64,000 nucleotides of DNA from Aerococcus urinaehominis (lineage in GTDB: Bacteria > Bacillota > Bacilli > Lactobacillales > Aerococcaceae). The notes below the pieces were generated by a model that worked only from the letters and a program-made list of their open reading frames with translations, searched no databases and had not been told where the DNA came from. Below, piece by piece: positions 2,449 through 57,299 of the stretch. The stretch is taken from NCBI RefSeq assembly GCF_001543245.1, contig NZ_CP014163.1, positions 682,001 to 746,000 on the forward strand, read 5' to 3'. The translations under genes were made by a program, and so were the position numbers. Positions within the stretch are counted from its first letter, which is position 1; each line of letters starts with the position of its first letter.

Positions 2449-5400
2449 TTAATCTTCTTTCTTACGACGACCAGCTAGGGCAAAGACTGAACCAAGACCC
2501 GCAAGCGTCAAAGCAAGATAGCTCATTGATACCGCACCTGTGCTAGGTAGCTGCTCTTTGACAGCTGAATCAATTGAGGTCGCTGCTTTAGCAGGTTGGC
2601 TAGCCTTAGCTGCCGGTTTAACTGGATCAGCGATTCCGGCTTGGTCAGTTGGTTTAGTCTGTCCTTTATCACTTGGTTGAGCAGGATCTTGCGCGTCTGG
2701 TTGACCAGACTTATTGTCATCGCGACCAGCTTCGTGACCTACTACCGGAATAGTAATAGTTGCTTGACCACCTGGTAGGTCTTTATCAGTCACAACTACT
2801 GTGATTGGACCATCGACCTTAGTACCTGGCGTTACTTCAACCTCACCAGTTGCTGGGTTAATGACTGCTGGGATACTATTACCATCTTCATCCTTGGCGG
2901 TCACTGTAGTGTCCTTGTCAGGGTTATTGACGATGATACCTGTACCTTGTTTGTCATCTGTTGGTTGAACTGGCGTAACCTTACTTTCATCAACTGTGGT
3001 CTTAGTAGTTGGTGTTGTAGGATCTTGCTTGCCTGGTTGACCAGACTTGTTATCGTCGCGACCAGCTTCATGACCTACTACCGGAACAGTGATAGTCGCT
3101 TGTCCACCAGGTAAGTCTTTATCAGTAACAACTACTGTGATTGGACCGTCCACCTTAGTCCCTGGGGTTACTTCAACCTCACCAGTTGCTGGGTTGATGA
3201 CTGCTGGAACAGGATTACCATCTTCATCCTTGGCTGTCACTGTCGTGTCTTTGTCAGGGTTATTGACGATGATGCCAGTGCCTTGTTTGTCATCAGTTGG
3301 TTGAACTGGCGTAACCTTACTTTCATCAACTGTGGTCTTAGTAGTTGGCGTCTCAGTACCTGGTTTGATAGGATCCTGCTTGCCTGGTTGACCAGACTTG
3401 TTATCGTCGCGACCAGTCTCATGACCTACTACTGGAACAGTGATGGTGGTTTGTCCGCCAGGTAAGTCTTTATCAGTCACAACTACTGTGATTGGACCGT
3501 CGACCTTAGTACCTGGGGTTACTTCAACCTCACCAGTTGCTGGGTTGATGACTGCTGGAACAGTATTACCATCTTCATCCTTGGCGGTCACTTTAGTGTC
3601 CTTGTCAGGATTATTGACGATGATACCTGTACCTTGTTTGTCGTCAGTTGGGTTAACTGGTGTAACCTTACTTTCATCAACTGTGGTCTTAGTAGTTGGC
3701 GTCTCAGTACCTGGTTTAACAGGGTCTTGCTTGCCTGGTTGACCAGACTTGTTGTCATCGCGACCAGCTTCATGACCTACTACTGGAACAGTGATAGTGG
3801 TTTGTCCACCAGGTAAGTCTTTATCAGTCACAACTACTGTGATTGGACCGTCGACCTTAGTACCTGGGGTTACTTCGACCTCACCAGTTGCTGGGTTGAT
3901 GACTGCTGGAATATCCTTACCGTCTTCATCCTTAGCGGTCACTTTAGTGTCCTTGTCAGGGTTATTGACGATGATACCAGTACCTTGTTTGTCATCAGTT
4001 GGGTTAACTGGCGTAACCTTACTTTCATCAACTGTGGTCTTAGCTTCTGGAGTGACTGGGCCTGTTGGCTTGCCGTCGCCATTATCATCCTTGTCTTTTT
4101 CATGGTTATTGACAGGAACTTCAACTCGGGCATAACCATTTGGCAACTCAGGGTCGGTAACAACTACAGTGATTGGGCCATCAACATTGGTACCTGGAGT
4201 TACTTCAACCTCGCCTGTTTCTGGGTTAATCACTACTGGTACATCTTTACCATCTTCGTCCTTGGCTGATACCTTAGTGTCTTTGTCCGGATGGTTAACG
4301 ATGATACCTGTACCTTGTTTGTCTTTAGTAGGGTTAACTGATTTGATATTGCTGTTGTCCACAGAAGTTGGGTTGTCATTTTGGTCTTTGGCATGACCAT
4401 CAACAGGTACTTCAGTTTCTTGCTTACCACCTGGTAATTGAGGATCTTCGACGATTACAGTGATTGGACCATCTACCTTAGTACCTGGTGTTACCTCGAC
4501 TTCACCAGTTTCTGGGTTGATAACGACTGGAATATCCTTACCGTCTTCATCCTTGGCTGATACCTTAGTATCCGCATCCGGATTCTTAACGATGATACCT
4601 GTACCTTGTTTGTCATCAGTTGGTTTAACTGGTTTCACCTGGCTATCATCCACTGATGTGTTGGTGCCGTTGTCGTCTTGGTCATCTTTATGGCCGTTCA
4701 CTGGGACTTCAAAGCTTTCTTCGCCATTAGCTAAATCTGGATCTTTCACAGTTACCTTGATTGGGCCGTCCACATCAGTACCTGGCGTCACAGAAATCTT
4801 ACCATCTTGACCGATTTCAACTGGAATATCTTTGCCATCTTCGTCCTTAGCTGAAACGGTGGTATCGGCGCTCGGATTTTCAACGACTAGACCCGTGTCT
4901 TGCTTGTCAGCGGTTGGATTAACTGGTTTAACGGTACCGGTAACGTTGGTCTTAACTTCTGGGGTTACTGGACCAGTTGGTTGGCCATTGCCGTTGTCAT
5001 CCTTACCAACTGTATGACCGTTCACTGGTACATCATAAGTTTCTGCACCGTTTGTTAAGTCTGGATCAGTTACTGTCACCTTGATTGGACCATCGACATC
5101 AGTACCTGGCGTCACAGAAATCTTACCGTCTTGACCGATTTCAACTGGAATATCCTTACCGTCTTCGTCCTTGGCTGAAACTGTGGTATCGGCGCTCGGA
5201 TTTTCAACGACTAGGCCAGTGTCTTGTTGGTCAGCGGTTGGGTTAACTGGCGTAACCGTGCCAGTGACATTGGTCTTAGCTTCTGGGATTACTGGACCGA
5301 TTGGTTGACCATTACCATTGTCATCCTTATCAACTGTATGACCGTTCACTGGTACATCATAAGTTTCTGCACCGTTTGTTAAGTCCGGATCAGTTACTGT

Positions 5401-8400
5401 CACCTTGATTGGGCCGTCAACATCAGTACCTGGCGTCACTAGCACCTTGCCGTCTTGACCAATTTCAACTGGAATGTCTTTGCCGTCTTCGTCCTTAGCT
5501 GAAACTGTGGTATCAGCACTTGGATTTTCAACGACTAGGCCAGTGTCTTGTTGGTCAGCGGTTGGGTTAACTGGCGTAACTATACCGGTGACATTAGTCT
5601 TAGCTTCTGGCGTAACTGGACCAGTTGGTTGGCCATTGCCGTTATCATCCTTGCCAGCTGTATGACCAGTCACTGGTACATCATAAGTTTCTGCACCATT
5701 AGTTAAATCTGGATCGGTTACTGTCACCTTGATTGGCCCATCGACATCAGTACCTGGGGTCACTAGTACCTTACCGTCTTGACCAATTTCTACCGGAATA
5801 TCCTTATCGTCTTCGTCCTTGGCTGAAATGGTGGTATCAGCACTTGGATTTTCAACGACTAGGCCAGTGTCTTGTTGGTCAGCGGTTGGCTCGACTGACT
5901 TAACTGTACCAGTCACGTTTGTCTTGGGTGAAGTTGGATTACCATTGTTGTTGTCATCCACACCATTCGTATGGTTGTTGACTGGAACTTCAATCTCCTG
6001 CTTACCAGCTGGTAATTCTGGATCTTCAACAGTCACAGTAATCGGTCCATCAACATTGGTTCCTGGTGTTACTTCTACTTCACCCGTGTCTGGATTGATG
6101 ACTGTTGGGATATCTTTTCCATCTTCATCCTTACCAGATACTTTTGTATCCTTATCCGGATTCTTAACAACAATACCTGTTCCCTGTTTCTTATCTGCAG
6201 GGTCCACTGGTGTCACTTGGCTATCATCAACTGAAGTAGCTGATTGATTATCATCTTGACCCTGAGTATGGCCATTGACTGGGACATCAAAGGATTCTTC
6301 GCCATTAGCTAAATCTGGATCAGTGACGGTCACCTTGATTGGACCGTCCACATCTGTACCTGGTGTCACAGAAATTTTACCGTCCTGGCCGATTTCAGTC
6401 GGAATATCCTTACCGTCTTCGTCCTTGGCAGCAACTGTGGTATCGGTGCTCGGATTTTCAACAACTAGTCCAGTGTCTTGTTTAGCTGCTGTTGGCTCAA
6501 CTGGCTTAACTGTACCAATAACGTTGGTCTTAGCTTCAGGTTTAGCTGGATTAATTGTCACTGGCACATTTAATTTATCGGTAGACCCGTCTGGATAGGT
6601 TACTGTCACTGGCACATTAGTTGTCCCAACTGTACTTCCATCTGGCAATTGACTCGGGTTATCAACTGAAACGGTTGGAGTTTGCCCTGGATATTTAGGA
6701 TTTTCAGTATAGTTTGGAACAGTAACAGACTTCTTAACTTCGTCTTCAGTAACAGCTTGGCCCTGGTCTTTAGTGACAGGATTTGCCACAGGGTTGTAAG
6801 AATCTGCCTCTTTAGCAGTCTTTTCAGTAACCACTACAGGCACTGTCACTACCTCTGAACTGGTATCAGGGTAAGTCACGCGAACACGACCAGTGACTGG
6901 CACATCATTGCCTTGGTCATCTTTAGTAGTTACCTTGCTGACGTCTGGAGCAGTTTCCCAGGCAAAGGTGGTTCCTTCCGGTAATTCCGCTTTATTGGTA
7001 ATACCAGCATCTGCTTCCGGCACAGTACCAACTTCAGTGGTTACTTGCTGAGTAGTTGGTTCATTGGTGCTGGCTTGGCTTAATTCATAGTAAGAATCAA
7101 AGTAAGCATTAGCATAAGAATTAACTAGACGCTTAGGTGCTGCCCCATTATCTGCATAAGGTATTTGACCATTTAGCGGACCACCTGGTGTATCAACAAA
7201 ATCAGCTTCCAGCCACGATTCAAATAAGAGTTTATTCTTATTTTGCTTGGTATATTCAGCTAAAGCATTGGCAATGTCTGTGATACTTGCGCCTTCAACC
7301 AGCGGATAGACAATCGAATAAGTTCTTGGTTGACCAATTGTCCCTTCAAATACTTTACTGTCTAAATTCTTTTGCGCATTTTTTAAGGCAGCGATTTGTT
7401 CTTGACGGTTATTTGGATCTGCCTGGGTAATCGAAATAGCCGGTGTCCTGGATGAATCGACTAAGCCTGTATCATCCATCACTAATGGAATAGGGTCAAT
7501 CGGCTCATTAAGAGAATTTCTAAACAAGTTCGGATTAGATGTATCGTTCATCACACCTAACTTCACACCGTTCGGGTCAACATATTGAACCAATACTTTT
7601 GGAATCTGTTCCTTAACATAAAGTGCCCAGTTATAGTTAGACTGTAACATATTTTGAGGCGGGTAGTTGATGGTGTGGCGAGAAATAATTGAGTTGCTAT
7701 CCTGATCATAATAAACACTTTGTCCGATACCATTGGTAGTAAAAAGACCATCAGCAAAGCGTGATTCACCAGCAGCACCAGATGTTCTGTTCGGGGCAAA
7801 TAATTCTGGATTTTTAGCTGGATCTGGATTGTTTGGGTTGTTAGCTAAGATAAAGCTATTATCAATCGAGCGACTTTCAACTAGGTTGAATTCGTTACCA
7901 GCTCCACTACCTGTCACCATACCGACAGTAAACGGTAAAGGTGTATTTGCTAAGCCTAGACTATCTAATGTTACACCCTCTTTAAGGGTAATACGTACAT
8001 CAACAGGCGATAAAGATCCTTCGATTCCCGCCTTCAAGTTGGCGTTAGTCAAAGGCATGGTCCAATCGCGGCCACTTTCGTTGCTAGACCATACTGTCGT
8101 ACCTAAAGGCCCGTTTCCATCAGTTGTCTCAATACTGGCAATATTCTTATAAAACTCTGGGTTAGCAAAGCCAATGACATAACGCCCAGGATATTTGGTT
8201 CCCTCTACTGTTCCCCAACGAGAAGCCGCACCTCCCTGAGGCCAGAAACGTAGGGCTAAGTCTATTTTTCCACTGCTACTATCGACCGGACGTACCTCAG
8301 CCGTATTGAAACGAATAGGTCCCGCTTCACCTTGGTCATATGTCTTCTCCCCAAAAGTTTCCTCTCGGAAAGGAATTTCTTGTTCTAATTCTGCTGTTTG

Positions 8401-8865
8401 TGCTTCATTTGCTGCTGGATTGTCAGCCGCCCGGGTACCAGTTTCTAAATCTGTATTATTGGTTGGGGCTGCATACAGCATAACTCTGTTGGCATCTGGT
8501 TGAGCATCTTCCTCAATAGTCGAGTCTGTATTCTCTCCTACTTTCTCAGAGAAACTACCCTCAACCGGTTGTCCAACTGATTCAACTGGTACTTCGTTAG
8601 CCTCAGTTGCTGGATTAATAGTTGTTTCTGGCTCTGGTTGCGTCATTGCTTCACCAGCAGGTTCAGTTTCAACTGCTTCTGCTGTTGTTTCGCTCACACT
8701 TGCTTCAGTGCTAGCTGCTTGGGCAACCTGTTCCTGACTAGCGAATAGGATACCTGCTGCAACTGCAACCGAGGCAACGCCGACGCTCAGCCGTCTGATT
8801 GAATATTTAAACACTTTTTGCCCCATCTTTTCCTGACGGAGCTGGTGATTGTTTTTACCTACCAA
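2449..8865 (-). CDS. Giant LPXTG-anchored YSIRK surface protein with 12 tandem repeats
   Basis: A cell-wall-anchored protein of about 2138 residues. I chose the TTG start at 8865 because a perfect AAGGAGG sits eight bases upstream; the upstream in-frame ATG at 8886 overlaps that ribosome site. Order of parts: YSIRK signal (YSIRRLSVGVASV, about residues 21-33), an acidic Thr/Glu-rich linker, a non-repeat N-terminal domain (about 180-600), two Rib-like segments (about 620-785, with YPDGST and VPVTV motifs), then 12 repeats of about 90-110 residues up to about 2055. The C-terminus has a Pro/Lys/Gln wall-spanning stretch, LPSTG, a hydrophobic segment and RRKKED. Two repeat types occur: one with GLVVENPSADTT and EIGQDGK, the other with GIIVNNPDKDT and VINPATGEVEVTPG. 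An adhesin with a length-variable stalk is the likely role. Sortase is not encoded here. Confidence 0.93.
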   Translation of the reverse strand: MVGKNNHQLRQEKMGQKVFKYSIRRLSVGVASVAVAAGILFASQEQVAQAASTEASVSETTAEAVETEPAGEAMTQPEPETTINPATEANEVPVESVGQPVEGSFSEKVGENTDSTIEEDAQPDANRVMLYAAPTNNTDLETGTRAADNPAANEAQTAELEQEIPFREETFGEKTYDQGEAGPIRFNTAEVRPVDSSSGKIDLALRFWPQGGAASRWGTVEGTKYPGRYVIGFANPEFYKNIASIETTDGNGPLGTTVWSSNESGRDWTMPLTNANLKAGIEGSLSPVDVRITLKEGVTLDSLGLANTPLPFTVGMVTGSGAGNEFNLVESRSIDNSFILANNPNNPDPAKNPELFAPNRTSGAAGESRFADGLFTTNGIGQSVYYDQDSNSIISRHTINYPPQNMLQSNYNWALYVKEQIPKVLVQYVDPNGVKLGVMNDTSNPNLFRNSLNEPIDPIPLVMDDTGLVDSSRTPAISITQADPNNRQEQIAALKNAQKNLDSKVFEGTIGQPRTYSIVYPLVEGASITDIANALAEYTKQNKNKLLFESWLEADFVDTPGGPLNGQIPYADNGAAPKRLVNSYANAYFDSYYELSQASTNEPTTQQVTTEVGTVPEADAGITNKAELPEGTTFAWETAPDVSKVTTKDDQGNDVPVTGRVRVTYPDTSSEVVTVPVVVTEKTAKEADSYNPVANPVTKDQGQAVTEDEVKKSVTVPNYTENPKYPGQTPTVSVDNPSQLPDGSTVGTTNVPVTVTYPDGSTDKLNVPVTINPAKPEAKTNVIGTVKPVEPTAAKQDTGLVVENPSTDTTVAAKDEDGKDIPTEIGQDGKISVTPGTDVDGPIKVTVTDPDLANGEESFDVPVNGHTQGQDDNQSATSVDDSQVTPVDPADKKQGTGIVVKNPDKDTKVSGKDEDGKDIPTVINPDTGEVEVTPGTNVDGPITVTVEDPELPAGKQEIEVPVNNHTNGVDDNNNGNPTSPKTNVTGTVKSVEPTADQQDTGLVVENPSADTTISAKDEDDKDIPVEIGQDGKVLVTPGTDVDGPIKVTVTDPDLTNGAETYDVPVTGHTAGKDDNGNGQPTGPVTPEAKTNVTGIVTPVNPTADQQDTGLVVENPSADTTVSAKDEDGKDIPVEIGQDGKVLVTPGTDVDGPIKVTVTDPDLTNGAETYDVPVNGHTVDKDDNGNGQPIGPVIPEAKTNVTGTVTPVNPTADQQDTGLVVENPSADTTVSAKDEDGKDIPVEIGQDGKISVTPGTDVDGPIKVTVTDPDLTNGAETYDVPVNGHTVGKDDNGNGQPTGPVTPEVKTNVTGTVKPVNPTADKQDTGLVVENPSADTTVSAKDEDGKDIPVEIGQDGKISVTPGTDVDGPIKVTVKDPDLANGEESFEVPVNGHKDDQDDNGTNTSVDDSQVKPVKPTDDKQGTGIIVKNPDADTKVSAKDEDGKDIPVVINPETGEVEVTPGTKVDGPITVIVEDPQLPGGKQETEVPVDGHAKDQNDNPTSVDNSNIKSVNPTKDKQGTGIIVNHPDKDTKVSAKDEDGKDVPVVINPETGEVEVTPGTNVDGPITVVVTDPELPNGYARVEVPVNNHEKDKDDNGDGKPTGPVTPEAKTTVDESKVTPVNPTDDKQGTGIIVNNPDKDTKVTAKDEDGKDIPAVINPATGEVEVTPGTKVDGPITVVVTDKDLPGGQTTITVPVVGHEAGRDDNKSGQPGKQDPVKPGTETPTTKTTVDESKVTPVNPTDDKQGTGIIVNNPDKDTKVTAKDEDGNTVPAVINPATGEVEVTPGTKVDGPITVVVTDKDLPGGQTTITVPVVGHETGRDDNKSGQPGKQDPIKPGTETPTTKTTVDESKVTPVQPTDDKQGTGIIVNNPDKDTTVTAKDEDGNPVPAVINPATGEVEVTPGTKVDGPITVVVTDKDLPGGQATITVPVVGHEAGRDDNKSGQPGKQDPTTPTTKTTVDESKVTPVQPTDDKQGTGIIVNNPDKDTTVTAKDEDGNSIPAVINPATGEVEVTPGTKVDGPITVVVTDKDLPGGQATITIPVVGHEAGRDDNKSGQPDAQDPAQPSDKGQTKPTDQAGIADPVKPAAKASQPAKAATSIDSAVKEQLPSTGAVSMSYLALTLAGLGSVFALAGRRKKED

Positions 8866-9132
8866 AATATTGGCCTCCTTAATCATTAATGCATAAAAAC
8901 AAAATCCTACACCCACACGTGTAGATAGAAATAGTGTAATCCATAAGTTTTTATTAAGCTAGACCAATATGTGCTTTTACGATAAAAAAGAACATTTTTA
9001 GATAAAGTTGAGAGTTTTCAGACTTTTTCGTGTATTTACCTAAAAAAAATAGCTACTTACTACCAAGTTTGCATTAGTAATTGTGCTACAAAAAAACTAT
9101 TGTACTTTTTAAGCAAGGCTAAATGGCAACAG

Positions 9133-10487: not shown

Positions 10488-10660
10488 AACGAGCCTGGGA
10501 CATAAATCCCCGGCTCTCACTATTATACGAATATTAGTATCATAGTCGGGCTCCAAAAGTCAGGGCTGACGTGCGTTTCCCAAAATCCTCCGATATCTTT
10601 CAGATATCATCGGCTTTTGGTCCAACGATTCAGCCCTAAGCGACTTTTGTCACACCCTCG
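10488..10660 (-). repeat. Modular palindromic intergenic element, copy A (between ilvC and ilvA)
   Basis: Copy A contains one full module (10543-10657) and the associated GAGCC...GGCTC hairpin (10490-10517). On the + strand the module starts at TAGTCGGGCTC and ends at TCACACCC. The outer stem is CAAAAGTC/GACTTTTG and the second stem AGGGCTGA/TCAGCCCT, both perfect. A third CCGATATC...GATATCATCGG stem encloses the loop. Read on the ilvC strand it starts 10 bases after the ilvC stop and ends in a hairpin followed by GTTTTT, a plausible terminator. Confidence 0.75.
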
Positions 10661-16469: not shown

Positions 16470-16602
16470 AAGTCTCATTCCTCATCTCATTTTTATTGCT
16501 TATATCATAACTGATTAGCCTAATCCTTAGCAAGTCAAGGAAGCACATTCTCTATTTTAGCTTGTTATGGCTTGTTGTGGGAGTTGGGAGCGGGGGAGCG
16601 AG

Positions 16603-17036
16603 TTCATTCTTAGCTAATTTCGATTTTAGATTAATTTGAAAGCCGACTGGAACTGGTGGCTTGCTCATTCTTAGCTAATTTCGATTTAAGAAGACTTTGA
16701 GATGGCGACTGGGGATGGTGGTGCATTCATTCTATGCTAACTTCGATTTTAGATTAATTTGAAAGCCCGATTGGATCTAGCAATGTGCTCATTCTATGCT
16801 AATTTTAATTTTAGATGAATTTGAGATGACGATTGAGGACGATGGTGCATTCATTCTATGCTAACTTCGATTTTAGATGAATTTGAAAGGCCACTTAGAT
16901 CTACCAATGCGCTCATTCTATGCTAATTTCGATTTAAGAAGACTTTGAGATGGCGACTGGGGATGGTGGCGAGTTCAATCTCCTCTAATTTCGATTTTAG
17001 ATTAATTTGAAAGCCCGATTGGATCTAGCAGCAATG
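16603..17036. repeat. 61-62 bp tandem repeat array, left part
   Basis: Seven imperfect units start at about 16603, 16665, 16726, 16788, 16849, 16911 and 16973, giving a period of 61-62 bases. Each begins near TTCATTCTATGCTAA followed by TTCGATTTTAGA. Two subtypes tend to alternate, one ending in GAAAGCCCGATTGGATCTAGC and one in GAGATGGCGACTGGGGATGG. The array ends at the left end of the IS and resumes on its right side. No coding potential was seen. Confidence 0.85.
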
Positions 17037-17040
17037 TGTC

Positions 17041-18357
17041 AAGTCCACAATCTTGTGTAAATTATAGAATGTAATTGGTGGGTATAAATATTTAGACTAT
17101 GTTATTAAAGAATTTATGAGGACATGTCTCCCAATATTCATGCAAATCAAGCAATACACTTCCTATAAGTCGCTCCGCAGCCTCTATATTAGGAAAGAGG
17201 CCGACAACTTTCTCTCTTCTTCTAATTTCTCGATTTAGCCTTTCTAGACTGTTAGTTGTTTTCAGTGAAACGCGATAAGGTGTGGGTTCTAATAAGTATG
17301 GGATAGCATCTTCGAAGCCTTCCTCTAGCGTATTAACAGCTTTGTCATATTTCTCATTGCCACTAACGTATTCTACAAATTCAAATTTTAACTCTCGCGC
17401 TCTTTGTTGACTATCAGCATTAAATATTCTCTTTAGAAGACTTCTCTCATGACTGCAATCCTTTTTTGGAAAATGAGCTAAAATATTACGTAGAAAATGA
17501 ACCGTACACCGTTGCCAGGTAGTGCCTAAAAATTGATTACTAATCGCTGATTTTAGTCCCTTGTGGGCGTCAGATATAATTAATGTTGGTTTAGTTAGGC
17601 CTCTGGCCTTTAAATCAAGGAAGAAGTTCTTCCAGTTTTCTTCTGATTCATTATCAGCAATCATAAAGCCGATAATTTCGCGACGATTATCATCGTTAAT
17701 ACCCTGAGCAATATAAACACCTTTAGAGACAGAACGATGGTTTTCGCGAACTTTAATATACATGGCATCGACATAAACATATCGAAAATTCGTATGTGTT
17801 AGGGAACGCCCTTTAAATTCGAAAACAGCAGGGTCCAAGTTTTTATTTACTGAAGAGACAAATGATTTAGAAACACCTTCGCCACAGAGTGTTTCAACAA
17901 CCTTCTTAATACGGCGTGTTGAGACCCCATTAATATACATTTCGGTTAAAACAGCCACAAAGGCCTTGTCCATACGTTGATATTTATCGAATAGCTTGGT
18001 ATCAAATTCTCCTGATCGTGTCCGAGGGACATCCAGTTCAACAGTCCCTACCTTTGTTTTAAAGTTTCTTTTATAGGAGCCATTACGATAATCTTTCCGG
18101 TCATCTGTGCGCTCATAGCGCTTAGCATTAATAAATTCCTCACGCTCTGCTTGCATATAGGCATTAAAGATGGTTACAGTTAGGGACTTCATCATCTGAT
18201 CCATATCACTGTTTAGAACTGCCTCTGTAATTTCTTCTAAGTTTAGGGTAATATTTAGTTGAGCCATAATAATCTTCCTTTCAATGTGTTTTAGCCAATT
18301 ACATTGTAACCAAAAAAGATTATTATGGTTTTTCTTTTTACACAATTATATGGACTT
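17041..18357. mobile_element. IS256-family insertion sequence
   Basis: About 1.3 kb bounded by imperfect inverted repeats: AAGTCCACAATCTTGTGTAAA on the left (17041-17061) against AAGTCCATATAATTGTGTAAA, the right end read inward (18337-18357). It encloses a single transposase gene. I could not find the 8-bp target duplication expected for this family, so the ends may be off by a few bases or the flanks may have recombined within the surrounding tandem repeat. Confidence 0.8.
17092..18267 (-). CDS. IS256-family (Mutator-type) transposase
   Basis: A 391-residue DDE transposase, the usual size for IS256. Catalytic acidic positions are visible in YVYVDAMYIKV (first D), LIISDAHKGLKSA (second D) and the Mutator-family SLERLNREIRRREKVVGLFPN segment (E). 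The ATG at 18267 has AAAGGA eight bases upstream; the longer frame extends into the terminal inverted repeat region and is unlikely. The reading frame is intact, so the element may be active. Confidence 0.95.
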   Translation of the reverse strand: MAQLNITLNLEEITEAVLNSDMDQMMKSLTVTIFNAYMQAEREEFINAKRYERTDDRKDYRNGSYKRNFKTKVGTVELDVPRTRSGEFDTKLFDKYQRMDKAFVAVLTEMYINGVSTRRIKKVVETLCGEGVSKSFVSSVNKNLDPAVFEFKGRSLTHTNFRYVYVDAMYIKVRENHRSVSKGVYIAQGINDDNRREIIGFMIADNESEENWKNFFLDLKARGLTKPTLIISDAHKGLKSAISNQFLGTTWQRCTVHFLRNILAHFPKKDCSHERSLLKRIFNADSQQRARELKFEFVEYVSGNEKYDKAVNTLEEGFEDAIPYLLEPTPYRVSLKTTNSLERLNREIRRREKVVGLFPNIEAAERLIGSVLLDLHEYWETCPHKFFNNIV

Positions 18358-18590
18358 AATCCCACTTGAATCTAGCAATGTGCTCATTCTTAGCTAATTT
18401 TGATTTTAGAAGAGTTTGAGATGGCGATTGAGGATAATGGTGCATTCATTCTATGCTAACTTCGATTTTAGATGAATTTGAAAGCCCGTTTGGATCTAGC
18501 AATGCGCTCATTACCTGCTTATTTCGATTTTATGTAAATTTGAAAAGTCGACAAATTCTAGCTACGTGCGCATTCTAGACTAACTTTCTA
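18358..18590. repeat. 61-62 bp tandem repeat array, right part
   Basis: About four further units, starting near 18379, 18441, 18505 and 18567, continue the array seen left of the IS, with the same two subtypes. The last two are more divergent. Together with the left part there are about 11 units. The stretch 18591-18700 shows nothing else. Confidence 0.8.
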
Positions 18591-18705
18591 GTACAGCTAC
18601 ATGGAGGGGTAATCTAAATCGGAATCTACCCCAGTCTGAACTAACTTTTCAGCTCTCAAGTTATATCGGAAAAATCGCCTTTTTTAGGCAAAATCACTGG
18701 ACAAC

Positions 18706-20092: not shown

Positions 20093-20137
20093 GCTCTAGT
20101 GTTAGCAAGGGCTGTGAAAGTTAAATGACACCCTTGA

Positions 20138-20222
20138 TAGCACTTCCTTACGCTAGTGTTAACTAGATCAAGTTAAAGGGTTTGTATCACTACATCTCAG
20201 CCAGCAGGCGCCCCTAGTGCGG
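20138..20222 (-). promoter_or_regulatory. TPP riboswitch aptamer (THI box)
   Basis: The minus strand contains the THI-element hallmarks in order: GGGGCGCC, GGCTGAGATG, ACCCTTTAACTTGATC and CTAGCGTAAGGAAG. It lies upstream of thiT, with a terminator between. A further hairpin (CAAGGGTGT / ACAGCCCTTG) sits between aptamer and terminator. Confidence 0.93.
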
Positions 20223-20243
20223 ATTTGATATTTGCTTAGGTCA

Positions 20244-20746: not shown

Positions 20747-20748
20747 TG

Positions 20749-21037
20749 AGCCTGGGGCATAAGTCCCAGGCTCTTATTATTATACAAATATTAGCAGTCT
20801 AGTCGGGTTCCAAGAAGCTAAACTGAAGTCGTTTCACTAGGCAGACTCAATATCTTTCAGATATTAGTCTGCCTAGCTCCAACGATTCAGTTCAGAGCGC
20901 TTCTTGTCGCACCCTTTTTTTAGTTGGGTTCGCTTTGGCAGGAATGAAGTCACTTCAGAAATTAGTCTCAATAGCTTGTTGCTATTGGCCTAATTCCTTC
21001 CAGTGATTCATTCCTGAGCGCCAAAGCTCACACCCTT
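20749..21037 (-). repeat. Modular palindromic intergenic element, copy B (two modules)
   Basis: A GAGCCTGGG...CCCAGGCTC hairpin (20750-20774) is followed by two tandem modules at 20801-20914 and 20922-21035. Module 1 has outer stem CAAGAAGC/GCTTCTTG, then AACTGAA/TTCAGTT, CTAGGCAGACT/AGTCTGCCTAG and AATATC/GATATT. Module 2 has GCTTTGGC/GCCAAAGC, AGGAATGAA/TTCATTCCT, TCACT/AGTGA and CAATAGC/GCTATTG. The orientation is given by the reading in which the hairpin is 3'. It fills the gap before mvaA and contains no gene. Confidence 0.8.
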
Positions 21038-24814: not shown

Positions 24815-24893
24815 CAAAAAAGCCAGGGACATAAGTCCCCAGCTCTCACTATATACAAATTTTCGTATCATAGTCGGGTTCGATCAGTTTAGA
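24815..24893 (-). repeat. Modular palindromic element, copy C (truncated) with terminator hairpin
   Basis: It contains the hairpin GCTGGGGACTTATGTCCCTGGC followed on the minus strand by TTTTTTG, and only the TAGTCGGGTTCG edge of a module; the palindromic part is lost. It lies 13 bases after the uxaC stop and probably ends the hexuronate transcript. Confidence 0.65.
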
Positions 24894-36992: not shown

Positions 36993-37285
36993 AGGGTGTG
37001 AGCTTTGGCGCTTAGACCAGAATCCTTGGAGCACCAGACAAGCAATATCACAGATATTGTCTTGACTGGTGTGAAAGGACTGCTGGTCTGCCAAAGCGAA
37101 CCCGACTAAACAGGGTGTGAGACTCGGCGTTTAGGCATGGACCACTGGAAGGAATCGGGCCAATAGCCGTAAGCTATTGAGTCAGATTTCTGAAGTGGCG
37201 ACATGCCTGCCGAGTCGAACCCAACTAAACGACTAACATTCCAATAATAGCGAGCGCCTGGAACTTATACCCCAGGCGCTTTTAT
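36993..37285 (+). repeat. Modular palindromic intergenic element, copy D (two modules) with terminator
   Basis: Opposite orientation to copies A and B. Module 1 (36993-37106) has outer stem GCTTTGGC/GCCAAAGC, then AGACCAG/CTGGTCT, CACCAG/CTGGTG and CAATATC/GATATTG. Module 2 (37112-37224) has GACTCGGC/GCCGAGTC, AGGCATG/CATGCCT, CCACT/AGTGG and CAATAGC/GCTATTG. The array then ends in the hairpin GCGCCTGG...CCAGGCGC followed by TTTTAT (37254-37284). It starts five bases after the stop of the upstream gene and could form its 3'-UTR and terminator. No gene lies in this gap. Confidence 0.8.
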
Positions 37286-40792: not shown

Positions 40793-40818
40793 AAAGTTAA
40801 TTAAATACTTGTACATAG

Positions 40819-40965
40819 TGTAGAGGCTGCGAACGTAATCAGTAACGGAAGTGAAAGGTGCGGTCGCCGAAACACCTGAGTGTTGGGGGTAGGTCCGAAT
40901 AGGTCTGCCACTGTCCGATAATTAAGCCCATTTTTTATTAGGAGCGCTCACTATGTAGGGGCAAT
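40819..40965 (+). promoter_or_regulatory. Lysine riboswitch (L box) aptamer
   Basis: The L-box signature elements occur in order: GTAGAGGCTGCGAAC, AGTAACGGAAGTGAAAGG, GTCGCCGAAACACC, GTTGGGGGTAGGTCC, CCACTGTCCG and GGAGCGCTCACTAT. It lies directly upstream of dapA, with a terminator between, so lysine should shut off the gene. Confidence 0.93.
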
Positions 40966-41964: not shown

Positions 41965-42057
41965 AAGAGCCTGGGTCACAAGTCCCAGGCTTTCGCTATT
42001 ATAGGAATATTAGTAGCATAGTGTGGGTTCGAGCAGGCATACTATATCCGCACACCC
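41965..42057 (-). repeat. Modular palindromic element, copy E (minimal)
   Basis: It contains the hairpin AGCCTGGGTCACAAGTCCCAGGCT and then only the module edges, GTGGGTTCG and CGCACACCC, about 15 bases apart. The stem arms have been lost. It lies between dapA and an AraC-type gene. Confidence 0.65.
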
Positions 42058-50194: not shown

Positions 50195-50285
50195 TTGCAA
50201 GCAGTTCAGAGCGCTTTTTAGTTGGGTTCGATCTGGCCTGCGTTTTCCAAAATCTAGCCTAGACAACTTTTCTCTCACTCTGTTT
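50195..50285. repeat. Modular palindromic element, copy F left fragment
   Basis: It contains GTTCAGAGCGCTTTTTAGTTGGGTTCG, the junction of two modules of this family, then a decayed arm ending CTCTCACTCTG. No complete palindrome remains. Confidence 0.55.
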
Positions 50286-50308
50286 TTCTTTATATTTGGC
50301 GAGAGTAG

Positions 50309-50797
50309 TTGTTGGGACTAGTATCAAGTAGCTTAACACCACCACCACTTGAGTTACTTCAGAAATGAAATTACTTGAGATTAGCTGGTGAGCTCGGGTC
50401 CAAATAGCTTAACTCCACCACTTGAGCTATTTCAGAAATACAATTACTTGAGATTAGCTGGTGAGCTCGTCCCCAAGTAGCTTAACTCCGCCACTTAAGC
50501 TACTTCAGAAATACAATTAATTGAGATTAGCTGGTGAGCTCGTCCCCAAGTAGCTTAACTCCGCCACTTAAGCTACTTCAGAAATACAATTAATTGAGAT
50601 TAGCTGGTGAGCTCGTCCCCAAGTAGCTTAACTCCGCCACTTAAGCTACTTCAGAAATACAATTAATTGAGATTAGCTGGTGAGCTCGTCCCCAAGTAGC
50701 TTAACTCCGCCACTTAAGCTACTTCAGAAATACAATTAATTGAGATTAGCTGGTGAGCTCGGGTCCAAGTAGCTTAACTCCGCCACTTAAGCTATTC
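50309..50797. repeat. 73-bp tandem repeat (minisatellite), about 6.5 copies
   Basis: The string TTAGCTGGTGAGCTCG recurs at 50381, 50454, 50527, 50600, 50673 and 50746, exactly 73 bases apart. The four units from 50454 to 50745 are identical as read here; the outer copies are diverged. Each unit holds an 11-bp inverted repeat AAGTAGCTTAA / TTAAGCTACTT around CTCCGCCAC, and a CAATTAATTG palindrome. 73 is not a multiple of three and there is no open frame. Confidence 0.93.
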
Positions 50798-50845
50798 TCT
50801 AGTGCACAATTCTAGCTGTTGCCCGCCTAACAGTCAAAATAAAAG

Positions 50846-51055
50846 ATCCTGGGGCATAAGTCCCAGGATCTCATTATTATACGTGTATTATCAATATAGT
50901 CGGGGTCGAAAAAGCTGAACTGGCTGTCACTTCAAAAATTAGTCTCAATAGCTTGTAGCTATTGGCCTCATTCCTTCCAGTGATTCATTCCTGAGCGCCA
51001 AGTCTCGCACCCTTTTATTTAGTCGGGTTCGGTCTGGCAGACCTCACACCCTTTA
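50846..51055 (-). repeat. Modular palindromic element, copy F right part (chimeric plus minimal module)
   Basis: It contains the hairpin GATCCTGGGGCATAAGTCCCAGGATC, with TTTTATTTT on the minus side. A full-length module (50901-51012) has outer arms that no longer match (GAAAAAGC against GCCAAGTC), and a minimal module (51021-51051) consists of GGGTTC, a GGTCT/AGACC hairpin and TCACACCC. The T-rich end supplies the stop codon of the PTS gene. Confidence 0.75.
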
Positions 51056-54436: not shown

Positions 54437-54457
54437 CATACGCTAAATTTTCAATTC

Positions 54458-54611
54458 AAGGATTCAGTTCTAAGCACCGGCCCTCACACCCTGCTTAGTC
54501 GGGTTCAGTCCGGCAGAACTGAAGTCCTTTCATAAAATCCGACACAATATCTACGATATTGGTCGTCTTTTATTCCAAGGATTCAGTTCTAAGCGCCAGC
54601 CCTCACACCCT
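54458..54611 (-). repeat. Modular palindromic element, copy G (one full, one half module)
   Basis: A right half-module ends at CACACCC (about 54490). A full module (54498-54610) follows, with second stem AGAACTGAA/TTCAGTTCT, TCCTT/AAGGA and loop stem CAATATC/GATATTG. Its outermost arms (AGTCCGGC against GCCAGCCC) are largely mismatched. Read on the minus strand it starts directly after the stop codon of the gene at 54612. Confidence 0.7.
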
Positions 54612-55238: not shown

Positions 55239-57299
55239 CTAATAGGTTAAACCAAAGCCATAAGTATATTTACCGCCCTGCTTGTCTTCATAAGCATATG
55301 GGATGTCCATATATTTTTCCTTGTCGTAGCCTGGCACATCATTAGGAGAGGCACAGATTCCATTTTCATCAACTGCGATAGCAGCTTGGTTGGCTGGCAA
55401 GGTAATCGGTAACTTGCCGGTTGGCTTGTAATTGCCGAAATGAACATCAAAAATCGCTTCGATAAAACTATTGAAGGAAGCAGTCAAGCCGTCTGCCAAT
55501 TCTTCTACACCCTCAAGCACAAATGGCAGGTCAAAGTTGACGTTGATGATAACTTGGTCAACATGAGCGGCCACATCGCGTACCTTATCCATATCCACGT
55601 TAGTTTCTTTGTGGATAGCTAAATCAAGGTAACCATCAGTTGCTTCGAAATAAGAACCTGAAATTGGTTCTAGTAAAAGAATGGCAATATCAGCAGCCTT
55701 ATAGTCAGTGACAACTTGGATATGCGGGAACTTGTCCTGCAATTGTCCTGGTAGGGCAGCGGCAATTTCATCGGTATTACCAAAGTTTCCAGATTTTTCC
55801 CGTGCCTTCAGCTCTTCTTCGTTGTAAACCTTAGTTAAGAGGTCAACGTAAATCTTCTTGCCAGCCACCTTATCTTCTGTTAAGGGCAGGACATTGTTTT
55901 CGTTTTTCAGTAGAACAACAGATTTCTGATGGGCTTGGTAGGCCTTGGTCCGTTTTTCTAGGGTGTTGACATTATCATCAGCCGTGGCCACATCGGCATA
56001 AGGGTTTTCAAAGAGGGCTAATTGGAAGAGTTCAATTAAGGTGCCCTGAACTAATTTGTCAACCTGGGCTGGATCAGCCAAGTTTTCAATGGCTTCTTGG
56101 AAGGTATCCGCATCAGTTGTTCCTGACACAATATTGGTACCAGCAGCCATGATTTTAGCGGCCCGCTCAGGCAAGCTCAAGTTTTCAGCACCCCAGGCCA
56201 TGGAGTTAAGCACTCCGGTATCAGAGTTGACATAGCCCTTAAAGCCCATTTGATTTCTTAGTAAATCAGTAACAAACTGCTTATTATAGGCAAAAGCAAT
56301 TTCTTCCTCAAATTCACCAGTAAATGGCGCTTGTGGCGTAGCTGATTTATCATTAGAAGGAATGGCATAGTAAGGCATGATTGATGATGGATTTTCATCA
56401 ATAGCGGCTTGGAATGGTGGCAGGTGGTATTTTTCTAGTGAGCCAGGTGTTGGATAAACATTGAATTTACCCTCAGCATAATGAGGGTCAAAACCATTTT
56501 CACGGGCCCCACCACCCGGGAAGTGTTTAATGGTTAGGGCAATCGAGTCTTCATCAAGCTGGTCACCTTGGTATTCTTTAATGAGTTGCTTGGCAATTTT
56601 AGAGATTTGTTCAGGATTTTCACCAAAAGTTCCTGACGTTCTAAACCAGCGTGGATCTGTCGCTGTATCCACCATGTACATATAGCCCTTGCGGATGTTG
56701 GCAGCTAAAAATTCTTCATGACCCGCTTCAGCAAAATCAGCGACCACCTGGTCATCCTGAGTGGCTGCAATCCCTAAAGTACCAGGATATTGGGTGAAAT
56801 TACCGCCTGAGGTTTGGCCATTGAAGGTCGGTGAGGCATTCTCATTTTTCGAGTTTGATAAGACAACAACTGGAATACCTAAACGGCTGTCTTCGGCAAT
56901 TTCCTGCAAGGCGTTAGCCCACTCGGCGTGCTGAGAAGCTTTGGCATTTTCCCGCACAATAATGTGACGCATCTGCAAATCCTTAATCATAGTTGTCGTT
57001 GGATATTCGTGGGTCTTAACTGGTTTTTCATGGTCCTTGTCAACCTCAGAAATAATACCATTAAAACTGGTTGGCTCTCCTTCTTCAACGGAAATCCCCA
57101 TTGGTTTATCATTAATTAAAAACATGCCTGCCTTTTCCCGGCTGTTCATACGGCTAACAAGGTCAGCAGCCCGCTCTTCGGCCGATAGACGCCAATCCTC
57201 ATAAGGATTTAGCTGGCCATCACCATTTAAATCACGAAATTGTAGGCCATCCACTTCAATAATTTGTTTGTGGCGCGAACCTAATGCTACTTGTTTCAT
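55239..57299 (-). CDS. Glycoside hydrolase family 3 (beta-glucosidase-like)
   Basis: 686 residues, cytoplasmic (no signal peptide). The N-terminal GH3 barrel has SRLGIPVVVLSNSKNENAS, ALTIKHFPGGGARENGFDPH (substrate-binding KHF) and FKGYVNSDTGVLNSMAWG, whose Asp is the probable nucleophile. The C-terminal alpha/beta sandwich domain begins near KSVVLLKNENNVLPL. A calcium-loop-like DLNGDGQLNPYEDW sits near the N-terminus. The substrate (beta-glucoside, beta-xyloside or similar) cannot be read. The ATG at 57299 has AAAGGAG seven bases upstream. A cre site at the promoter predicts catabolite repression. Confidence 0.92.
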   Translation of the reverse strand: MKQVALGSRHKQIIEVDGLQFRDLNGDGQLNPYEDWRLSAEERAADLVSRMNSREKAGMFLINDKPMGISVEEGEPTSFNGIISEVDKDHEKPVKTHEYPTTTMIKDLQMRHIIVRENAKASQHAEWANALQEIAEDSRLGIPVVVLSNSKNENASPTFNGQTSGGNFTQYPGTLGIAATQDDQVVADFAEAGHEEFLAANIRKGYMYMVDTATDPRWFRTSGTFGENPEQISKIAKQLIKEYQGDQLDEDSIALTIKHFPGGGARENGFDPHYAEGKFNVYPTPGSLEKYHLPPFQAAIDENPSSIMPYYAIPSNDKSATPQAPFTGEFEEEIAFAYNKQFVTDLLRNQMGFKGYVNSDTGVLNSMAWGAENLSLPERAAKIMAAGTNIVSGTTDADTFQEAIENLADPAQVDKLVQGTLIELFQLALFENPYADVATADDNVNTLEKRTKAYQAHQKSVVLLKNENNVLPLTEDKVAGKKIYVDLLTKVYNEEELKAREKSGNFGNTDEIAAALPGQLQDKFPHIQVVTDYKAADIAILLLEPISGSYFEATDGYLDLAIHKETNVDMDKVRDVAAHVDQVIINVNFDLPFVLEGVEELADGLTASFNSFIEAIFDVHFGNYKPTGKLPITLPANQAAIAVDENGICASPNDVPGYDKEKYMDIPYAYEDKQGGKYTYGFGLTY

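Follow-up and report, generated by a model that had tools for sequence, protein, structure and literature searches.

The palindromic modules that recur in the intergenic gaps of this region are parts of a larger composite unit, which is probably a non-autonomous, modular, BOX-like mobile DNA element whose hairpin must fold as DNA for copying. The unit consists of a 26-bp hairpin A (GAGCCTGGGACATAAGTCCCAGGCTC), a linker of about 30 bp that ends in TAGTC, and one to four tandem B hairpins of about 110 bp, with only a few to about 25 bp between successive B modules; an array of up to six B modules was found in the related genome G001. Hairpin A and the linker, which lie upstream of many modules, had been absent from the preliminary description. 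Hairpin A is terminator-like and scores as a terminator. B has fixed ends, GGGTTC at its start and TCACACCC at its close. From the 5' end to the centre, GGGTTC is followed by an 8-bp outer stem, a second stem of 7-9 bp, a 1-nt bulge, a 5-bp stem, and the inner stems with their loop. On the return arm, a one-sided 4-nt bulge (GAGC, AAGC or AAAC in the window) separates the second and outer stems. The internal loops of B are conserved. By eye only, the composite ends GAG..TG.G resemble each other. In being a short, non-coding, dispersed repeat with defined ends, the unit agrees with MITEs in general.

The window, i.e. the whole stretch of 64 kb that was analyzed (G000:C1:682001-746000), belongs to a genome consisting of a single contig of 1,831,400 bp. 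It contains the following complete and reduced copies.

10491..10657, plus strand: A (10491-10516), linker and one B (10548-10657), 167 bp in all; outer stem of this B, CAAAAGTC/GACTTTTG
20748..21035, plus strand: A (20748-20773), linker and two B (20805-20914 and 20926-21035)
24820..24888, plus strand: A, linker and the first bases of B, the remainder of B missing
36994..37279, minus strand: composite of A (37254-37279) and two B (37113-37222 and 36994-37103)
41967..42057, plus strand: internally deleted composite of A, linker and a mini-B with little beyond the ends
50845..51051, plus strand: A (50845-50870), chimeric B (50902-51012) and collapsed B (51025-51051)
54449..54492, plus strand: 3' arm fragment of B, repeat family D14
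54501..54610, plus strand: full B without A, outer stem paired at 5 of 8 positions

A covariance model recovered all seven B modules of the preliminary description and, besides these, matched a remnant of 27 bp at 51025-51051. When folded as DNA, six of the seven window modules reached z values of -5.3 to -8.8 against dinucleotide shuffles, none of 200 shuffles being as good, so that the modules of roughly 115 bp reported earlier are real. The exception was the module at 50902-51012, which folded no better than chance (z -1.3, 18 of 200 shuffles as good). Its arms, GAAAAAGC and GCCAAGTC, do not match each other. The outer stem is fully paired (8/8) in five of the seven modules, whereas 4/8 positions pair at 50902 and 5/8 at 54501. 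The conserved ends, the inner stem CAATATC/CAATAGC and the four different yet complementary outer stems named in the preliminary description were all as described there. In collapsed forms little remains beyond A and the ends of B, as at 41967-42057, or the ends alone, as at 51025-51051.

Other features were seen in the window. Copies of a 62-bp tandem repeat (16598-17081 and 18358-18614) flank a Mutator-family (PF00872, IS256-type) transposase gene at 17092-18345. A 73-bp tandem array of about eight units (50269-50852) has a HAD-domain gene on one side and the A-B composite at 50845 on the other, and degenerate B-like pieces (TTCAGAGCGCTTTTTAGTTGGGTTCGATCTGGC...) occur upstream of the array at 50199-50290. 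An ORF of 2155 amino acids on the minus strand (2449-8916) has internal repeats of roughly 290-350 bp and may encode a surface protein. The Rfam search of the window detected a TPP riboswitch at 20128-20225 (minus strand) and a lysine riboswitch at 40813-40956 (plus strand).

Throughout its own genome the element is abundant. At least 90 matches at E values up to 0.01 were obtained in the 1.83 Mb by the covariance model, with 150 of 698 candidates scored. The A pattern gave 31 forward and 30 reverse matches against none in the control; many A sites were counted on both strands because the pattern is near-palindromic. The 28 composites delimited by script measure 79-577 bp, with 167 bp as the typical length for A plus a single B. 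A different inner hairpin, GCATACTATATCCGTACGCATTGAAAATGCTACGGCTATAGC, was noticed in some units of this genome (L043 near 75.3 kb, L034/L015 near 619.8 kb); in one case it precedes an ordinary B, and it is perhaps a third module type.

The stems of B covary very strongly. In an alignment of 147 matches (146 distinct) from several genomes, the covariation score was 0.844 compared with 0.199 after shuffling, and 92.0% of the cells were paired compared with 56.7%; these matches had E values up to 1e-11 in 56 chosen sources, and the alignment was fitted to the model. Controls with a slid register reached at most 0.164. Within the own genome the score was 0.482 versus 0.167 for 39 copies, and changes on both sides were present in 27 of 33 pairs; the covariance model was built on these 39 of 45 extracted modules, and the omission of the six that were chimeric or carried an insert favours pairing in this alignment. 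In both alignments the observed score lay above all 500 shuffles.

Inspection of the outer stems showed how these differences are distributed. Among 80 own-genome copies examined, the outer stem was perfect in 33 and had at least one mismatch in 47. The perfect stems of the genome fall into 16 types, of which 13 are one base pair away from another type; therefore, stem change is mostly stepwise. In seven of the 47 imperfect stems, both arms recur as arms of perfect types; in 21, one arm does. The stem swaps noted earlier are distant points of a one-step network, mixed by recombination. Of the "whole-stem compensatory replacement" proposed in the preliminary description, the compensatory change held, whereas its whole-stem character was largely a sampling effect.

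Strong covariation would also be produced by a structured RNA. According to this explanation, B would act within transcribed 3' UTRs as a terminator, stabilizer or processing site, and selection would maintain the fold of the RNA; the position of the element downstream of genes and the terminator score of A would fit as well. A selected RNA strand should accept G-U pairs and reject A-C pairs. The modules did not show this preference. At 22 fixed-position pairs in 166 copies (69 of 96 own and 97 of 120 other sequences, kept because at least 14 of the 22 pairs were Watson-Crick), 55 G-U and 105 A-C combinations were counted, the last of the 22 positions, which is maybe loop, contributing 20 C-A cells. 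At the 15 best pairs of 67 non-redundant copies (69 and 104 of the same own and other sets kept, at least 10 of 15 pairs), the numbers were 14 and 30. In tRNA acceptor stems the relation was reversed, with 15 G-U and 3 A-C (19 distinct tRNAs from segments of four relatives and from the window), and the difference between modules and tRNAs gave a Fisher p of 2.7e-4. A-C was somewhat in excess (p = 0.023). Read on the opposite strand, this excess would be G-U; if it came from an RNA, that RNA would be the minus strand, and the level is low. The pairs look as if they were selected as DNA and not as RNA.

The genomic context pointed in the same direction. By a simple ORF script, 51 runs of the element in its own genome comprised 35 between codirectional genes, 14 between convergent genes, one between divergent genes and one without a flank; none lay inside an ORF. 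In this genome the element is thus intergenic, and in almost every case at least one neighbouring gene ends towards it. Relative to codirectional neighbours its two strands were about equally represented (16 sense, 19 antisense), which speaks against a transcript with a fixed sense. Rfam gave no match in the modules, either for the whole window at the gathering score or for ten loci at a permissive threshold. Taken with the lack of preference for wobble pairs, these findings make the structured RNA quite improbable, and the "folded RNA" of the preliminary description was not supported.

The fate of resident copies was followed in two pairs of close relatives, G001/G002 (91% identity) and G003/G013 (93%) in the blocks compared. 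From each genome 0.54-0.62 Mb was used, and loci were scored in both directions, a shared locus counting twice. Of 92 directed comparisons, 49 loci were present in both genomes, 27 had no model match in the other genome, 15 lacked syntenic flanks and one fell at a segment edge. For G001 against G002, 16 loci were in both, five had no match, one had no syntenic flanks and one lay at the edge; the reverse comparison gave 16, 14 and nine in the first three classes. The corresponding figures were nine, three and three for G003 against G013 and eight, five and two for G013 against G003. The 27 "absent" loci are an upper bound: 22 were inspected and two showed no gap, while several further cases represented changes of array length, internal deletions or unclear alignments and not clean empty sites (examples are G3a 123340, G3a 257238, G13a 99064, G13a 137642, G13a 191258 and G13a 228585). 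Sites and array lengths therefore vary between close species, which is not expected of a structured RNA.

From 21 module pairs at the same site, the 15 with an identity of at least 0.88 were analyzed. Forty of 47 changed base pairs had left Watson-Crick pairing by a change on one side (17 to A-C, 17 to another mismatch and 6 to G-U). The remaining ones were two changes from G-U to Watson-Crick, three double changes to a mismatch and two compensated pairs, both at one locus. Thus, the covariation does not visibly build up in resident copies, contrary to what a selected RNA fold would require, and we infer that its source lies in the lineages of spreading copies. Among the 40 one-sided changes, 17 were of the kind that would be a wobble on the minus strand and 23 were non-standard, so that a minus-strand RNA finds no strong preference in its favour either. 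Differences were somewhat less frequent at paired than at unpaired sites (53 of 1175 versus 38 of 537, p = 0.036); some constraint on resident copies is therefore possible, and this is a point on the side of the structured RNA. In the pair at G1a 117316 the copies agree until the last 20 bases or so, where the 3' arm is exchanged as a block, and in the pair at G1a 95286 three of the eight positions of the 5' arm are different, next to scattered changes. Recombination between modules would give such arm exchanges.

The same-site comparison also bears on an origin of the pairing by mutation without selection, in which replication switches templates between the arms and so writes the sequence of one arm onto the other. 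This process predicts arms that match perfectly by Watson-Crick pairing, with no wobble, and the two compensated pairs at a single locus would agree with it. Set against this, compensation was seen in 2 of 47 changed pairs and 40 one-sided changes stayed uncorrected, mismatched chimeras persist, and the asymmetric ends and bulges are kept, although a whole-arm switch would remove them. We consider template switching highly improbable as the source of the pairing.

The range of the element was determined by searches of related genomes, as the preliminary description had proposed. In a first sample, matches were found in 22 of 60 genomes, including 11 of 15 of the genus when its own genome is counted; four of the 14 same-genus relatives contained nothing that the covariance model recognized. 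A broader model matched 47 of 198 genomes of the order, taken to be Lactobacillales, in 22 of 55 genera and seven families, at E values up to 1e-6, with stricter filters and at most 19 candidates scored per genome. Aerococcus tenax UMB3669 is a carrier with 19 matches in 106 kb. Eighty loci were found through a neighbouring protein in named genomes (best 47% identical); model R1 gave no match in the 34 searched, and model R2 gave one weak match (E 0.0043) in 26 of them.

This distribution is relevant to a further possibility, namely that B is a host DNA site, a cruciform bound by a nucleoid or supercoiling-control protein and kept in shape by the host. For REP/BIME sequences, cruciform binding by such a host protein has been proposed. 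Pairing at the DNA level without wobble and the conservation of bulges and internal loops would be explained by such a site. A site maintained by the host would not be expected to lack a match in those four same-genus relatives and in 151 of the 198 order genomes, nor in the close relative at 27 of 76 compared loci (again an upper bound), and the loss of pairs in resident copies argues against it as well. We therefore judge a host binding site improbable.

Mobility of the element is indicated by its insertion sites. The cleanest insertion, consisting of A and a mini-B, was found on contig 33 of G001 near 140.3 kb. It has ATTAATTCAA on both sides, a direct repeat of 10 bp, and the uninterrupted site is present in G002. 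Conversely, a three-module array at position 56931 of the G002 segment has no counterpart in G001, although its borders align there. At four sites (G1b 106086, G2a 63392, G2b 108113 and G2b 128649) the sister genome has, by eye, a different, terminator-looking hairpin instead, so that replacement by recombination is possible. G165, from another family of the order, contains 12 near-identical dispersed copies of about 170 bp at unrelated sites; their borders, at GAGG and CTCCC, are sharp and lie between A and T tracts, and one of the 12 has a variant A. Thus, near-identical dispersed copies, sharp ends and sites that differ between close species support the "palindrome-based mobility" that had been suggested as an alternative to a folded RNA. 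In G001 and G002 (L224-L232), a second palindromic intergenic family (TGAGCATxCGTTxCGC...GCTCCACTTCTGCTCA) was observed, sometimes beside B modules, as was a third repeat family (CAACCCACACTCG...GTGGGTT) in tandem.

Direct repeats were not a general property of the borders. At the ends of own-genome composites they did not exceed shuffled pairs (2.61 versus 2.57, n = 28; P 0.43, n = 25 after three composites with doubtful ends had been dropped), nor did they at the 12 G165 copies (P 0.092). The single 10-bp repeat could therefore be an exception or the result of another process. The flanks of the 12 G165 copies were mutually complementary, i.e. inverted, above shuffled pairs (0 of 1000), and those of 25 own-genome composites were not (P 0.67). 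The complementary G165 flanks may reflect insertions that landed in terminators or next to them. Where one of the G165 copies lies, G058 carries a shortened copy of A and linker and G044 a plain terminator-like hairpin, so this copy has no clean empty site.

Several known systems resemble the element in part. BOX of Streptococcus pneumoniae and S. suis, as portrayed in the relevant parts of PMC3049150, is modular and folded, with a repeated middle module and 125 elements in one genome. There, its length varies with module number, it is overrepresented between convergent genes, it has terminal inverted repeats and target duplications, and it is argued to be a parasitic, non-autonomous mobile element. 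The modular composite plan is shared with the element described here, a likeness of description and not of compared sequences. BOX, however, has the order A-B(n)-C, whereas the present unit is A-(B)n with no C or end module, the last B ending the unit, and its repeated module is the covarying hairpin itself. Target duplications are not generally seen, in contrast to BOX, and the range differs: the same parts of PMC3049150 report BOX from pneumococcus and S. mitis and BOX-type elements from S. suis, as against 22 of 55 sampled genera of the order. Efa-1 of Enterococcus faecalis (PMC2267715) is intergenic, has a model length of 163, a printed count of "65 (18)" and an adjacent stem-loop pair; two adjacent stem-loops and about 163 bp compare well with 167 bp for A plus one B and about 170 bp in G165. 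The passages on Efa-1 in that source mention neither mobility nor covariation nor modular arrays. By analogy of length and double hairpin only, Efa-1 may be the same family in another genus. No paper naming the family came up in searches of open-licence PMC papers on Aerococcus, Enterococcus, BOX/RUP/SPRITE, stem-loop families, REPINs, Efa-1 and terminator MITEs, PMC10969869 being among the papers considered. The earlier statement that no described family fits is unsafe, given the BOX-like architecture and the possible identity with Efa-1.

In integron attC sites, recognition depends on the shape of the folded single strand and on its extrahelical bases, and the stem sequence is variable. Variable stems are a common trait, and recognition by shape would be another. 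Unlike attC sites, the tandem modules are a few to about 25 bp apart, so they enclose no cassettes. REPINs are likewise hairpin-forming mini mobile DNA with compensated hairpins, and a hairpin intermediate is proposed for them; according to the parts of PMC3116915 that treat them, they differ in having invariant 16-mer ends, where the present stems are free, and a RAYT partner, where the own genome contains no Y1 gene.

Y1/RAYT was dismissed as the general mobilizer, being absent from 23 of 35 carriers tested and held by 12. A Y1 gene was found in 5 of 11 genus carriers, in none of four genus non-carriers and in 7 of 24 further carriers, and the distribution within the genus makes a part for Y1 possible in some genomes. 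G011, of the same genus, has 18 matches to the Y1 transposase PF01797, and 10 of the 15 genus genomes have none. Spread by plasmid or phage was also considered and rejected. Neither plasmid nor phage records contained a match to a B module of the window. For the G165 composite there was likewise no match among phage records, and the one plasmid match was Aerococcus tenax CP127381, which is 591 kb long with chromosome-like gene content. A pattern match on a viral contig was a chance match in unrelated DNA.

For the mobile element we propose the following course of events. An enzyme supplied in trans by another element or by the host would recognize B, and probably A too, as a folded single strand or cruciform. 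It would read the fixed bulges, loops and ends and leave the sequence of the stems free. If only copies with well-matched arms become parents, the arms of spreading copies would drift in step, with Watson-Crick compensation. Resident copies would be little constrained; their pairs would be lost, their modules would recombine with neighbours, and internal deletions would make them collapse. Recombination between neighbours would yield chimeras as well as growth and shrinkage of arrays. This decay step must account for the outer-stem mismatches in 47 of the 80 own copies. Insertion beside a gene terminator, or in place of one, would be tolerated, since A by itself and the unit as a whole look like a terminator lying between A and T tracts. 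In its most far-reaching form, the proposal is that of an order-wide element recognized by nothing but the folded shape of a DNA strand (stem lengths, one-sided bulge, loops and ends fixed, stem sequence free), moved by a non-Y1 enzyme without regular target duplication, and targeting or replacing terminators; this version appears rather unlikely to us.

Strong covariation is usually read as evidence for a functional RNA. The present results suggest that such a signal can also come from a mobile DNA hairpin, and that counts of G-U versus A-C, together with same-site copies in close relatives, can separate DNA from RNA. A family that occurs in 22 of 55 sampled genera without a matching Rfam model could point to an unknown transposition enzyme. 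If recognition by shape is true, the element would belong to a shape-read transposition system with an enzyme other than Y1.
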